Positions 174 to 19,218 of a stretch of 64,000 nt of DNA are shown in pieces. The position numbers and the translations under genes were made by a program. Within the stretch, counting starts at the first letter, position 1. Each line of letters begins with the position of its first letter. This DNA is from Micromonospora marina (lineage in GTDB: Bacteria; Actinomycetota; Actinomycetes; Mycobacteriales; Micromonosporaceae). The notes beneath the pieces were generated by a model. It made no database searches, was not told where the DNA came from, and was given only the letters and a program-made list of their open reading frames with translations. The stretch is from the NCBI RefSeq assembly GCF_900091565.1, contig NZ_FMCV01000002.1, positions 248,001 to 312,000 of the forward strand. The letters are read 5' to 3'.

Positions 174-193
174 TCATCCACAAGTTATCCACA
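174..193. promoter_or_regulatory. Two DnaA boxes in the dnaA upstream region
   Basis: Two adjacent 9-mers read TCATCCACA (174-182) and TTATCCACA (185-193); the second is a perfect classical DnaA box. They lie about 60-80 bases upstream of the dnaA start, where DnaA autoregulation is known in other bacteria. The rest of 116-480 holds no recognisable gene. Confidence 0.65.
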
Positions 194-4694: not shown

Positions 4695-6029
4695 GTGCAT
4701 GACGACGGCAGGTACGACGATCCACGGTTGACCGGACCCGGAGGCCAGCCCTCCACCGACCCCGTTTCACGTGAAACCAACTACCAGGAGTGGACGGTGA
4801 ACGAGTCCGGCGAACCGTCCTCCTCGTACCCGGCTCAGTCGTCCAAGCGGCGGGAGCCGCCGGCCGGCGGGCCCGTGCGCCCCGTCTCGTCCGTGCCGGC
4901 GAACGTACCGCCGGCCCGCGACCCGCTCGACCCGGCCGACGGTCCGGTGAACGCGCCGACCCCGCGCCCGTCAGCGGTGCGGGCGAACGCCGCAGTGCCC
5001 ACCCGCTACGAACCCCAGCCGCCCGTCTCGACCGTGCCGTTTCAGGCCGCCCCCGAAGCCGTGTCGGCGTCCGACACGCCACAGGCAGACGGGTACGGGG
5101 ACGAGGTAGACGCCAGCACGTACGTTTCACGTGAAACCCCGACGCGCGAAGAGGATGATCCACCGTTGGCTATGGAGGCGATGCGCGCCGTGCAGATCCT
5201 GAATCCCAGTGGCGAGGTCACCATGCCGCGCCCCGACCGGACCCGGGTGATGTGCGTCGCCAACCAGAAGGGCGGCGTGGGTAAGACGACCACCACCGTG
5301 AACCTCGCAGTGGCGCTCGCGCTCCACGGCAACCGGGTGCTCGTGGTCGACCTTGACCCCCAGGGGAACGCCTCCACCGGTCTGAACGTGCCGCACCACA
5401 CGGGCGTGCCCGACGTGTACGACTGCCTGATCGACAGCGTGCCGTTGGAGGAGGTGGCCCAGGCGGTCGAGGGCATCCCCAACCTGTGGTGCGTACCGGC
5501 CACGATCGACCTGGCCGGCGCCGAGATCGAGCTGGTCTCGGTGGTGGCCCGGGAGTCGCGCCTGGCGCGGGCCATCGCCGCGTACCCGGGGCACTTCGAC
5601 TACGTCTTCATCGACTGTCCGCCGTCGCTCGGCCTGCTCACCGTCAACGCGCTCGTGGCCGCGCAGGAGGTGCTGATCCCGATCCAGTGCGAGTACTACG
5701 CGCTGGAGGGCCTGAACCAGTTGATAAACAACATCAACCTGGTTCGTCAGCACCTCAACCCGAAGCTCGAGGTCTCCACCATCCTGCTCACCATGTACGA
5801 CAGGCGTACCCGGCTGGCCGACGCGGTGGAGCAGGACGTCCGGAACCACTTCGGCGACAAGGTGCTCCAAGCCGTCATCCCCCGCAACGTGCGTGTCTCC
5901 GAGGCACCGAGCTACGGCCAGTCGGTGATGACCTACGATCCCGGTTCACGGGGAGCCACGAGTTACTTCGAGGCCGCCCAGGAGATCGCGGAACGAGGCG
6001 TCAAGGAGCCGGTGAGCCGGAATGCGTAA
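4695..6029 (+). CDS. parA: Chromosome partitioning ATPase ParA (Soj)
   Basis: 444 residues from GTG 4695 (MHDDGRYDDPRL). The ParA ATPase core starts near residue 182 with VMCVANQKGGVGKTTTTVN, the deviant Walker A motif (KGGVGKTT). Downstream are VLVVDLDPQGNAS (Walker A') and FDYVFIDCPPSLGLLT (Walker B). ParA is a dynamic DNA-binding ATPase that moves ParB-parS complexes. The first ~180 residues are Pro/Ser-rich and poorly conserved. Two parS sites are embedded there, both read in frame as VSRET. Later starts (GTG 4797, ATG 5173) are possible and would put one or both parS sites outside the coding sequence. Confidence 0.94.
   Translation: MHDDGRYDDPRLTGPGGQPSTDPVSRETNYQEWTVNESGEPSSSYPAQSSKRREPPAGGPVRPVSSVPANVPPARDPLDPADGPVNAPTPRPSAVRANAAVPTRYEPQPPVSTVPFQAAPEAVSASDTPQADGYGDEVDASTYVSRETPTREEDDPPLAMEAMRAVQILNPSGEVTMPRPDRTRVMCVANQKGGVGKTTTTVNLAVALALHGNRVLVVDLDPQGNASTGLNVPHHTGVPDVYDCLIDSVPLEEVAQAVEGIPNLWCVPATIDLAGAEIELVSVVARESRLARAIAAYPGHFDYVFIDCPPSLGLLTVNALVAAQEVLIPIQCEYYALEGLNQLINNINLVRQHLNPKLEVSTILLTMYDRRTRLADAVEQDVRNHFGDKVLQAVIPRNVRVSEAPSYGQSVMTYDPGSRGATSYFEAAQEIAERGVKEPVSRNA
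4764..4777. promoter_or_regulatory. parS site 1 (inside parA 5' region)
   Basis: Perfect 14-base palindrome GTTTCACGTGAAAC, the consensus ParB-binding site. It lies about 70 bases into parA and is translated P-VSRET-N. Confidence 0.92.
5124..5137. promoter_or_regulatory. parS site 2 (inside parA 5' region)
   Basis: Second perfect GTTTCACGTGAAAC, 360 bases after site 1. That distance is a multiple of three, so it is read in the same frame and again encodes VSRET. Confidence 0.92.
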
Positions 6030-6056: not shown

Positions 6057-7097
6057 ATGAAGAACCGTCCCCGCGGCGGACTGGGTCGAGGGCTCGGCGC
6101 CCTCATCCCCACCGGACCGGTACCGGGCGCCGAACCGGCCGCCGTCGAGCCGGAGACGCCGGCCGCGGCCGCGCCCTCGCCGGGCCCGGCCGCTGGTGCG
6201 ACCGCTGCCATCACCGGCGGCCTCGGAAGCATCTCGCCTCCGGCCGTCGAGCCTGAGCTTCAGCTGAGCCCGGTGCCCGGTGCCCGCTTCGCGGAGATCC
6301 CGGTCGACGCGATCGTGCCCAACCCGAAGCAGCCCCGGCACGTCTTCGACGAGGAGGCACTGGAGGAACTGAAGACCTCGATCCAGGAGGTCGGCTTCCT
6401 CCAGCCGATCGTGGTCCGCCAGCTCGACCCCGAGAAGTTCGAACTCGTGATGGGCGAGCGGCGCTGGCGTGCCGCCCAGGCGGTCGGCCGGGAGACCATC
6501 CCGGCGATCGTCCGGGACACGAAAGACGACGCGATGCTCCGGGACGCGCTCCTGGAGAACATCCATCGCGCCAACCTCAACCCGCTCGAAGAGGCGGCGG
6601 CGTACCAGCAACTGCTGGAGGAGTTCGGCGCCACGCACGAGGAGCTGGCCCGGCGGATCGGCCGCAGCCGCCCGCAGATCTCCAACACCATCCGACTGAT
6701 GAACCTGCCGCCCGCCGTGCAGCGCCGGGTTGCTGCCGGCGTCCTCTCCGCCGGCCACGCCCGGGCACTGCTCAGCCTGGACAACGCCGAGGCGCAGGAG
6801 GCCCTCGCGGAGCGGATCGTCCGCGAGGGCATCACGGTCCGCGGTGCCGAGGAGCTGGTGCACCTGGCGCTCGCCGATGAGCCGACGAAGACAGCCGCCG
6901 CCAAGCGCCGGCCGAAGCCGCACGCCCCGGCGCTCACTGATCTCGCGGACCGACTTTCGGACCGGTTCGACACCCGGGTGAAGGTCGACATCGGCCGCAG
7001 CAAGGGCAAGATCACGATCGAGTTCGCCACCGTCGACGACCTGGAGCGGATCGTCGGCATCATCGGCATGGGTGAGGACGCGCAGCCCGAGGCGTAG
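6057..7097 (+). CDS. parB: Chromosome partitioning protein ParB (Spo0J)
   Basis: 346 residues from ATG 6057 with GGGAGG seven bases upstream. The N-terminus [17 protein letters not shown] is the standard ParA-contacting start. The ParB/Spo0J CTPase domain follows (about 80-190), with [15 protein letters not shown], the GERRWRAAQ motif and [15 protein letters not shown] helix-turn-helix region that reads parS comes next (about 195-240, [16 protein letters not shown]). The C-terminal ~65 residues form the dimerisation domain. ParB loads at the six parS sites in this window, spreads, and recruits ParA and SMC. It lies 27 bases after parA, in one operon. Confidence 0.96.
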
Positions 7098-7115
7098 TCC
7101 CTTCTCCGGTCTGTT

Positions 7116-7155
7116 GATCCGGCCGCACCGCCCGACGAGGGAGTGCGGCCGGATC
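7116..7155 (+). terminator. parAB terminator
   Basis: A perfect 13-base inverted repeat (GATCCGGCCGCAC at 7116-7128, complement at 7143-7155) with a 14-base loop, starting 18 bases after the parB stop. It marks the end of the parAB transcript and the start of the parS island. Confidence 0.7.
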
Positions 7156-7315
7156 TGCGTCTGGGCCTGACTTCGGTGCCCTACCTCCCTCCGACTGGAG
7201 GCGGCCGGGTCGGCGCCGATCGCGTGGGACGGACGCTCGGCCGAACGGTTGCCGCCGAAGCCGCGGTCGCGGCGACCCGCGCGGCGAGCGCCACCAGCCT
7301 CAGCCGCAGCTCCCC

Positions 7316-7329
7316 GTTTCACGTGAAAC
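7316..7329. promoter_or_regulatory. parS site 3
   Basis: Perfect GTTTCACGTGAAAC in the gene-free stretch after parB. Confidence 0.92.
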
Positions 7330-7918
7330 CACCGGCAACGATCGCCAGGCCGCCGATCGCGGGGGCACGCGCCGGACGAGCCGGTTACGGCCAGCCGCGA
7401 CCGATGGGAGTCGGTGACGGGGCGGCAGCGGTGCGGGTCGGTGCCGATCGTGCGGTAGCGGTGGTAGCGGTGGAACCGGCTGGTTTCAGCGATGCAGCCG
7501 GGTCGGCTTCGACGGTTGCCGGAATCCGTCCCTTGATGGCCGGCTCGTTCCGGCCGACCGCTCGATCGCCAGCGACGAGGCGTTCCGGTGTTCTACCGAT
7601 CTGCGCTCTGCCGGGAAACCGAGTCGGGAGCGGCAGGAGCACTCGGACGGTGAACCTCGATCCTCGCTCGGCGCCCCCGCTCCTGATTGACCCGGCCGAT
7701 CCTGACGCCGAGCCGCGCACTACGACTTCGAACCATCGAGCCGGGGAGAAGAATCCCGGCGTCCGGGCGGGGCGCGGTCAGCGCTGCCAGCATCCATCAA
7801 GCCGCGGGTCCGGCCTACCCGCGCCTCTCGGGCTCCTGTGCACCGTGGGCTCCGCCTGGCGGGGATCGCACTTGCGCACCCCTCTGTCGGAGCTGACCGA
7901 GCCTGGAGACGGCCATCC

Positions 7919-7932
7919 GTTTCACGTGAAAC
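7919..7932. promoter_or_regulatory. parS site 4
   Basis: Perfect GTTTCACGTGAAAC, about 600 bases after site 3. Confidence 0.92.
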
Positions 7933-8261
7933 GGCATCCCGCTTCCGGCTCTCAGAGCCGCGGCCACGTGCACGTGATGATGAGCAGCAGGGCTGAGGGG
8001 GCCGGTCCGCTCGACCCGCGATCAGTTCCCGAAGGACGCCGTCGCCGCCGGGGCAACGGCCACCTCTCCAGCGGTGCCACTCCCATTGCCCCGACCCTGG
8101 CCGCCACCGCGAGCGTGCTCAACCGACGCCGGGAGCACCAAGGCGAAGGTCCGGCTGCCGACCGCCCAAGAAGCAATCCTCGGGTGCGGCCTACGACGTG
8201 CCGCGCCAAGCAGCCACATCAAGCGCCCGCGCCGCAGAGCGGGACGGAGCGCCGCGCCGCT

Positions 8262-8275
8262 GTTTCACGTGAAAC
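8262..8275. promoter_or_regulatory. parS site 5
   Basis: Perfect site; flanking T and A extend it to the full 16-base TGTTTCACGTGAAACA (8261-8276), the form usually given as the bacterial consensus. Confidence 0.93.
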
Positions 8276-8354
8276 ACGTACGAGAAGAACCGGCCACACC
8301 CGGTGCGGATCCGTCGCCGGATCGTTTGACGAACGGACCCGGAAGCCCCCCTGG

Positions 8355-8481
8355 TTATCCACAGCAGTTTTCCACAGGCACCCTCTGTTTCACGTGAAAC
8401 GAAGCGAGGAAACCCTTGCTGAGCAGTGCATGACGCGCTGTGCTGGTGATCTCGGCAGCCTGTGGACAACCCGGTGGACAA
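8355..8481. promoter_or_regulatory. DnaA-box-like cluster around parS site 6
   Basis: Four 9-mers resemble DnaA boxes: TTATCCACA (8355-8363, perfect), TTTTCCACA (8368-8376), and on the opposite strand TTGTCCACA (complement of 8461-8469, the actinobacterial consensus) and TTGTCCACC (complement of 8473-8481). They bracket parS site 6. The region lies about 8 kb from dnaA on the rpmH side, so it is not the usual oriC position. Confidence 0.6.
8387..8400. promoter_or_regulatory. parS site 6
   Basis: Perfect GTTTCACGTGAAAC, 125 bases after site 5 and flanked on both sides by DnaA-box-like sequences. Confidence 0.92.
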
Positions 8482-8543
8482 CCGGTGTGTGCCCAGTGGA
8501 ACGGGTAGGGACAGGCGTCGCCAACTCGGTTAGGGTCAGCGTC

Positions 8544-9425
8544 GTGCCGGACACCCCTCCCTCAGTTCCCGACTTCACCCAGTGGCCGTCCTTCCCCTTC
8601 GAGGGCGATCTCCGCGTCAAGCAGCTCGACGAGCCCGTACCGTTCGAACCTCCCCGCCGCGGCGAGGCGGACCGTGAGTGCACCGCCTGCAACGCGCCCG
8701 ACGAGGCGTACATCTGGGTCGGTGAGCGGTGGCGTGTCCGCGCCATGGACCGGCCCACCGGTCTGCCAATGGTCCTGATCCTGGAGTCCCGATCGCACCT
8801 GGATCTGGGCGACCTGCCGAATCTGCTCGCCGCCGAGCTGGGCGTGATGACCGTCCGCCTGGAGCGGGCCGTCCGCTCGCTCGACGGGGTGGCTCGCGTC
8901 CATGTGAACCGGTGGGGCGACGGTTCGGCGCATCTGCACCTGTGGTTCCTGGCCCGGCCGTACGGGCGGCTGCAACTGCGGGGCACGTTCCTGTCGCTGT
9001 GGGACTCGATCCTGCCGCCGATCTCCGAGGACCAGTGGCGGGAGAACCTGGCGCTGGTGGCAGCGTGGCTCGCCGAGTTCGGTGGCCGCCCGCTGGCCGA
9101 GCCGCCGCGCATCCAGTGGCAGGCACCGTCGAGTCTCTCCTCGACCTCCCCCGCGAACGCCGCTGAGGAGCCCGAGGATGAGTCCCTGTCGGTGATCGAG
9201 GCTGCGGATGAGATTCCGGAGTCCGACGCGGCAGCGGACCTCTCAGACCCCTCGGCGGACCCGTCGGAGCCCGACCCGGCAGCGCAGACCGGTGAGACGC
9301 CCGCGAGCGAATCACGCAGCGCATCGGGCGGCGGGCCGGGCAACGCCTCGGACGACGAAGACGAGGACGAGCGGGAGGACGCGCCGGACGACCGGCCGGG
9401 CGGGGCGCGTACCCGGGAGGTCTGA
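8544..9425 (+). CDS. Conserved actinobacterial protein with HIT-like core, next to parB
   Basis: 293 residues from GTG 8544, chosen because TAGGGT (8531-8536) ends seven bases upstream, the pattern of a leaderless transcript. Residues ~1-190 are well structured: a CxxC pair (CTACNAP), a VRLERAVRSLDGVARVHVNRWGD segment and AHLHLWFLARP, then a Trp-rich C-terminal part. The HLHLW strand after a glycine-rich turn recalls HIT/GalT-type folds, but the third histidine of a classical HIT triad is not evident and catalysis is uncertain. The last ~100 residues are acidic, Ser/Pro/Asp-rich and probably disordered. Genes of this kind often sit near parB in Actinobacteria. Its stop is one base from the convergent ddl stop. 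Confidence 0.8.
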   Translation: MPDTPPSVPDFTQWPSFPFEGDLRVKQLDEPVPFEPPRRGEADRECTACNAPDEAYIWVGERWRVRAMDRPTGLPMVLILESRSHLDLGDLPNLLAAELGVMTVRLERAVRSLDGVARVHVNRWGDGSAHLHLWFLARPYGRLQLRGTFLSLWDSILPPISEDQWRENLALVAAWLAEFGGRPLAEPPRIQWQAPSSLSSTSPANAAEEPEDESLSVIEAADEIPESDAAADLSDPSADPSEPDPAAQTGETPASESRSASGGGPGNASDDEDEDEREDAPDDRPGGARTREV

Positions 9426-18811: not shown

Positions 18812-19218
18812 GTGGCTTCCCGCTCTACCTTCGGTGGAACGGCCGCGGTGTCGACACCCGCGTCGATCCCGGTCGTACCCGTCGAGAGCGACCTTACCCG
18901 GGATGCCCGGTTCTCCGACATGTCATCTTCCCGCTGTGACCGGCCGGAAGGCCGGGCACAGCCGCTCCGGCCGGCTCGCCCGCCCACCCGACGGGCAAGC
19001 CGGACACACACCGTCAATCTAGAGGTTGGCGGCAACGTGGCGGCACAGGGGCGTACCGGTGTGGCGACGGAGAGGTTTCCCCGTCCCGGCCTGCGCTCCC
19101 TCGTCCGTACGGTTGGTTGTCCACAGGCCGGGAGGCCCGGTGGACGGCGGAATTCCAAGTTATCCACAGCCGTATCCCCAGCCTGGTGATCCTCGTTCAC
19201 AGTCGGTCACCGAGGGGG
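18812..19218. other. Gap between pseudokinase and murJ genes
   Basis: 407 bases with no credible gene. It separates two genes that are fused in mycobacteria. The murJ-proximal half holds two DnaA boxes (19117-19168). No clear terminator hairpin or promoter was recognised. Confidence 0.6.
19117..19168 (+). promoter_or_regulatory. Two DnaA boxes beyond murJ
   Basis: TTGTCCACA (19117-19125, actinobacterial consensus) and TTATCCACA (19160-19168, classical consensus) in the same orientation, 43 bases apart start to start. They lie in the non-coding gap directly after the murJ stop. Confidence 0.55.

Follow-up and report, generated by a model that had tools for sequence, protein, structure and literature searches.

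A conserved cage of predicted DnaA boxes around one parS site near the replication origin of Micromonospora marina and other Micromonosporaceae

The window analysed here is a stretch of 64,000 nucleotides of the Micromonospora marina genome (C46:248001-312000) with a gene order centred on replication and segregation functions. The genes dnaN and dnaA are on the minus strand at the left of the window, and genes of the rpmH-yidC-jag-rsmG type, assigned by sequence reading, lie between dnaA and parA. The parA gene (4695-6029, plus strand) codes for an AAA_31 domain, and parB (6057-7097, plus strand) codes for ParB_N, HTH_ParB and ParB_C domains; the ParB protein is 95% identical to that of M. tulbaghiae, the nearest named relative. 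The origin oriC lies between dnaN and dnaA at about C46:245490-246270 and contains 15 box-like sites. There are six parS sites in the window, at 4764, 5124, 7316, 7919, 8262 and 8387, all within a span of 4 kb, and four of these are in the long intergenic stretch to the right of parB (7098-8543; 1.4 kb), which is variable in length and has no clear gene. Beyond it is a conserved neighbor of parB (8544-9425, plus strand) coding for a HIT-like protein with an HLHLW motif, for which there is no Pfam match even at an E value of 10 and no NCBIfam match. The sequence GGGACA-17-TAGGGT (8508-8536, plus strand), conserved in relatives directly before the start codon, is likely the core promoter of this gene and would give a leaderless start.

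The sixth parS site (GTTTCACGTGAAAC, 8387-8400; the 16-mer at 8386-8401 has one mismatch with TGTTTCACGTGAAACA) is surrounded by DnaA-box-like sequences. Box 1 (TTATCCACA, 8355-8363, plus strand) is identical to the high-affinity DnaA box of E. coli and B. subtilis (PMC4285127), and box 2 (TTTTCCACA, 8368-8376, plus strand), with one mismatch, starts 13 bp after the start of box 1 and ends 10 bp before parS. To the right, 60 bp after parS, is box 4 (TTGTCCACA, 8461-8469, minus strand), which is identical to the high-affinity box of M. tuberculosis and S. coelicolor (PMC4285127) and is part of a block conserved within Micromonospora; box 5 (TTGTCCACC, 8473-8481, minus strand), with one mismatch, is in tandem with it at 12 bp. 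An earlier, sequence-only reading had described these four 9-mers, two of them perfect, as surrounding parS no. 6 about 8 kb from dnaA and on the side away from the expected oriC. Direct reading places them at 8355, 8368, 8461 and 8473 with the perfect copies first and third, the cluster lies about 8.2 kb from the dnaA start, and oriC is on the far side of dnaA, about 10 kb to the left of the cluster. The earlier description lacked box 3 (TCATGCACT, 8425-8433, minus strand), which is 24 bp after parS and, despite its degenerate letters in M. marina, is conserved in position; in most Micromonospora it is TCATCCACA.

With DnaA boxes pointing both ways and the canonical oriC nearby, the cluster might be a second or auxiliary replication origin. 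We regard this as highly improbable: the boxes are few, the region is about 70% G+C without an A+T-rich unwinding stretch, and a typical oriC sits between dnaA and dnaN. The last two of these features also led us to reject membership of the oriC class for the cluster.

A chance cluster can be ruled out. The window has 10 near-matches to TTATCCACA where 1.3 are expected, and the cluster at parS no. 6, the densest in the window, has four box-like sites in 127 bp, whereas 30 copies of the window generated by a Markov model reach two at most. Likewise, a trio of boxes 1-3 with intact cores is present in 89 of 106 real upstream regions and in none of 1060 Markov copies. A pattern search of the 6.06-Mb genome finds 40 exact copies of TTRTCCACA, 11 of them within the approximately 30 kb around oriC and the parS no. 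6 cluster.

Paired or clustered boxes are also found at other places. One pair, TCATCCACA and TTATCCACA separated by 11 bp, is at the 5′ end of dnaA (window 174-193) and in the same place in relatives; this is a probable dnaA autoregulation site. A TTGTCCACA and a TTATCCACA, 43 bp apart, lie beside a MurJ-like gene (window 19117-19168), and three tandem boxes, 13 and 18 bp apart, are between the apparent gyrB and gyrA genes (C46:238376-238416). At C50:166624-166653, an inverted box and a tandem pair have spacings of 9 and 12 bp and an order near that of DARS; this stretch shares 88% identity with window 8447-8486 over 40 bp. Other paired boxes are at C46:88421, C46:353012, C34:154378 and C34:314429, several of them intergenic.

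Comparison of 80 named loci around parB, together with about 110 further Micromonosporaceae stretches, reveals a module with a fixed geometry: box 1 in the plus orientation, box 2 in the same orientation 13 bp away (start to start), then after 8–10 bp parS, and after a further 24 bp box 3 in the minus orientation. It has several features. First, the trio of boxes is present in 104 of 130 distinct upstream regions, and although distances of 50–63 bp between boxes 2 and 3 were allowed in the search (with an intact TCCACA core in each box), only 55 (4 loci), 56 (47 loci) and 57 bp (53 loci) were found. Second, the gap between parS and box 3 is 24 bp in 92 of the 93 loci with an inner parS. Third, box 1 is TTATCCACA in 84 of the 104 loci, and box 2 is TTATCCACA in 53, TTGTCCACA in 26 and TTTTCCACA in 24. 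Fourth, the information per column is 1.85–2.0 bits in boxes 1 and 2 and parS, reaching 2.0 bits in box 1 and parS, and 1.5–1.8 bits in box 3, compared to 0.24–0.32 bits in the upstream flank. Finally, the cage is specific to one site: only one of the six parS sites in the window is enclosed, and only 13 of 127 other nearby parS sites lie within 60 bp of an exact box.

The module is widespread within the family and rare outside of it. The exact pattern TCCACA-N7..11-parS is present in 211 of 301 Micromonosporaceae genomes, with no matches to a reversed-pattern control, and a class-wide sample yields the parS-box pattern in only 2 of 392 genomes beyond three Micromonospora; the surveyed genomes are related, and the counts are thus not independent. 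Within Micromonospora, 101 of 106 match the exact arrangement of boxes and parS, and the loss of the module from the other five is only apparent, as they have perfect boxes 1 and 2 at unchanged spacing and a parS with one or two mismatches. The loss of boxes from relatives that keep parS, which the sequence-only reading had named as evidence against its proposal, is not seen among these Micromonospora. When the trio was sought without parS in the query in 61 Micromonospora genomes, 44 genomes gave a total of 46 matches. A perfect parS lies inside each of them, and no copies of the trio are found elsewhere in the 61 genomes. M. marina itself is missed by this search owing to its degenerate box 3; its inverted pair is farther out, at 8461 and 8473. 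In Amycolatopsis, Saccharomonospora and Prauserella (five loci), a TTGTCCACA lies between two parS sites upstream of parA, possibly an independent association of DnaA and parS.

Conservation of the boxes by itself could reflect the action of DnaA only. One form of this is a plain titration cluster of the kind seen in B. subtilis and in the Streptomyces DnaA-box cluster D78, with parS an incidental occupant of a region where parS sites are dense. In both bacteria such clusters repress untimely initiation (as cited in PMC5742627), parS density is high here (six in 4 kb), further paired boxes lie around oriC, and the boxes stay perfect in loci whose parS has one or two mismatches. An incidental parS is nonetheless quite unlikely, given the perfect parS inside every trio match in the Micromonospora genomes, the constancy of the parS-box spacing across genera and in both orientations, and the scarcity of exact boxes beside the other nearby parS sites.

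The module has several natural variants. In all 28 loci of Actinoplanes and its allies the module is reverse-complemented with respect to the neighboring gene with its spacing intact, and the same is true of two Micromonospora. Several genera retain a trio spacing of 56–57 bp around a decayed inner parS, and most of these loci carry a parS 6–40 bp outside of the trio, although in the compact parB-HIT intergenic regions of some genera such nearness is partly inevitable. One genus (g15) retains the trio and has no parS within 60 bp, and several divergent genera have neither the trio nor such a parS. Two small-genome Micromonospora have pairs of boxes flanking parS on both sides.

These variants bear on whether DnaA and ParB act here to regulate transcription of the downstream HIT-like gene. 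The module is 54–250 bp upstream of this gene in most relatives, and in M. marina 26 bp separate the end of box 5 from the putative -35 element, both of which favor such a role. However, the module lies clear of the conserved core promoter, its distance from the gene start ranges from 54 to more than 800 bp (and exceeds 2.2 kb in two Actinoplanes), and a whole genus has it inverted. Because its orientation flips as a unit, it is the module and not a promoter that makes up the unit. Variable distance and flipped orientation thus disfavor a promoter element, and we consider a role in regulating the HIT-like gene to be distinctly unlikely.

We propose that the module is probably a functional composite site for DnaA and ParB, as judged from comparison of the sequences. 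Its support comes from the fixed spacing, the conservation, the flipping of orientation as a unit, the outer parS of most loci with a decayed inner one, and the precedents of rctA/parS2 and the DnaA-bound parS of Caulobacter. Several observations count against it: one genus has the trio with no close parS and several genera lack both, the five Micromonospora noted above retain their boxes better than their parS, box 3 of M. marina is degenerate with box 2 also one base off consensus, and the trio is normally close upstream of one gene. The sequence-only reading had offered titration, reactivation, and a coupling of initiation to segregation as alternatives; the comparison favors a real DnaA/ParB composite site and does not single out any one of these. 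A literature search retrieved no data on binding, copy number or segregation in the Micromonosporaceae and, with most subscription journals outside its reach, no paper on the box locus at parS no. 6.

As to how such a composite site might work, we tentatively suggest – with somewhat more reservation than conviction – that ParB gates a negative DnaA site and thereby couples initiation with segregation. DnaA would bind tandem boxes 1 and 2 and the inverted box 3 (or boxes 4 and 5 in M. marina). These boxes face each other with about 47 bp in between, and the bound DnaA would form a small complex or loop in which DnaA is held or inactivated near oriC. ParB would load at the parS inside the cage and slide outward as a clamp. 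The two proteins would compete, such that ParB loading strips DnaA from the module and bound DnaA is a roadblock to ParB spreading. As its replication follows initiation by about 10 kb, the site would signal that the origin region is both copied and occupied by ParB, and would set the level of free DnaA.

The dependence could also run in the other direction, as in Caulobacter, with DnaA at the module altering ParB loading or ParA engagement so as to license movement of the origin region, in place of ParB control over DnaA. In Caulobacter DnaA binds parS (as reviewed in PMC6399470) and at low DnaA the centromere moves without being replicated (as described in PMC6667618), the distance between parS and the origin is similar (8 kb there and about 10 kb here), and a cage on a single parS out of six is as expected of a special licensing site. 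Against this, the five other intact parS sites within 4 kb would load ParB without DnaA, and some genera retain the trio without the inner parS, so that we view a licensing role of this type as possible and on balance doubtful.

Direct links between the start of replication and segregation at the level of DNA are known in very few species. A composite DnaA-ParB module would place the predicted sites of both key proteins in approximately 80–130 bp that can be mutated base by base, with a geometry fixed throughout a large family of actinobacteria in which antibiotic producers abound. Through its natural variants – modules in inverted orientation, inner parS sites that have decayed, a degenerate box 3, and two-sided pairs – the direction of control can be put to a direct test.

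Several known systems share parts of this organization. Clusters of DnaA boxes outside of oriC are present in Streptomyces coelicolor, itself an actinobacterium, and in B. subtilis (as cited in PMC5742627), and the module likewise has a cluster of consensus boxes outside of oriC, although no parS is described inside those clusters in the sources consulted. The core of E. coli DARS1 and DARS2 has two tandem boxes and one inverted, facing box in the same order and orientation when read on the other strand. The DARS spacings, as we measured them, are 12 and 14 bp compared to 13 and 55–57 bp here, and the module was not assigned to this class since it lacks the three-box core spacing. The 42-bp longer gap does preserve the DARS helical phase (14 versus 56 bp, four turns), a weak match, since roughly three of every ten distances taken at random would also agree. 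Moreover, DARS elements have no parS, and IHF and Fis take part at DARS2. E. coli datA is similar in being a box cluster near oriC with a site for another protein in between (IHF there, ParB here), but the essential datA boxes all point in one direction (PMC5742627) and box 3 is inverted, so membership of the datA class was also rejected. It is conceivable, albeit unlikely, that the module is a DARS- or datA-like three-box complex with the inverted box moved by four helical turns and switched by ParB; the ParB loading site in the loop would then take the part of E. coli IHF, and inactivation or reactivation of DnaA would be set by ParB loading.

The closest parallels combine initiator sites with a parS. 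In Caulobacter crescentus, DnaA binds to parS and sets the centromere in motion (Mera et al. 2014, reviewed in PMC6399470), and the module resembles this in having DnaA sites at a centromere of a primary chromosome (about 8 kb from the origin in Caulobacter); Caulobacter is, however, a Proteobacterium, and no trio with fixed spacing is reported there in the sources consulted. In V. cholerae chromosome II, rctA has a parS beside initiator sites, and spreading of ParB2 displaces RctB and relieves inhibition (PMC3141006, PMC3688505). The rctA/parS2-B region and the module both have initiator sites and parS interleaved near the origin and the par genes. They differ in that rctA involves RctB and 39-mers on a secondary chromosome whereas the sites here are DnaA boxes recognized from their sequence, and a fixed box-parS-box cage is not reported for rctA in the sources consulted. 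Of the properties expected of initiator/parS composites, two are seen in the Micromonosporaceae module: consensus sites for the initiator lie no more than a few tens of bp from a parS near the origin, and the association is kept by selection.
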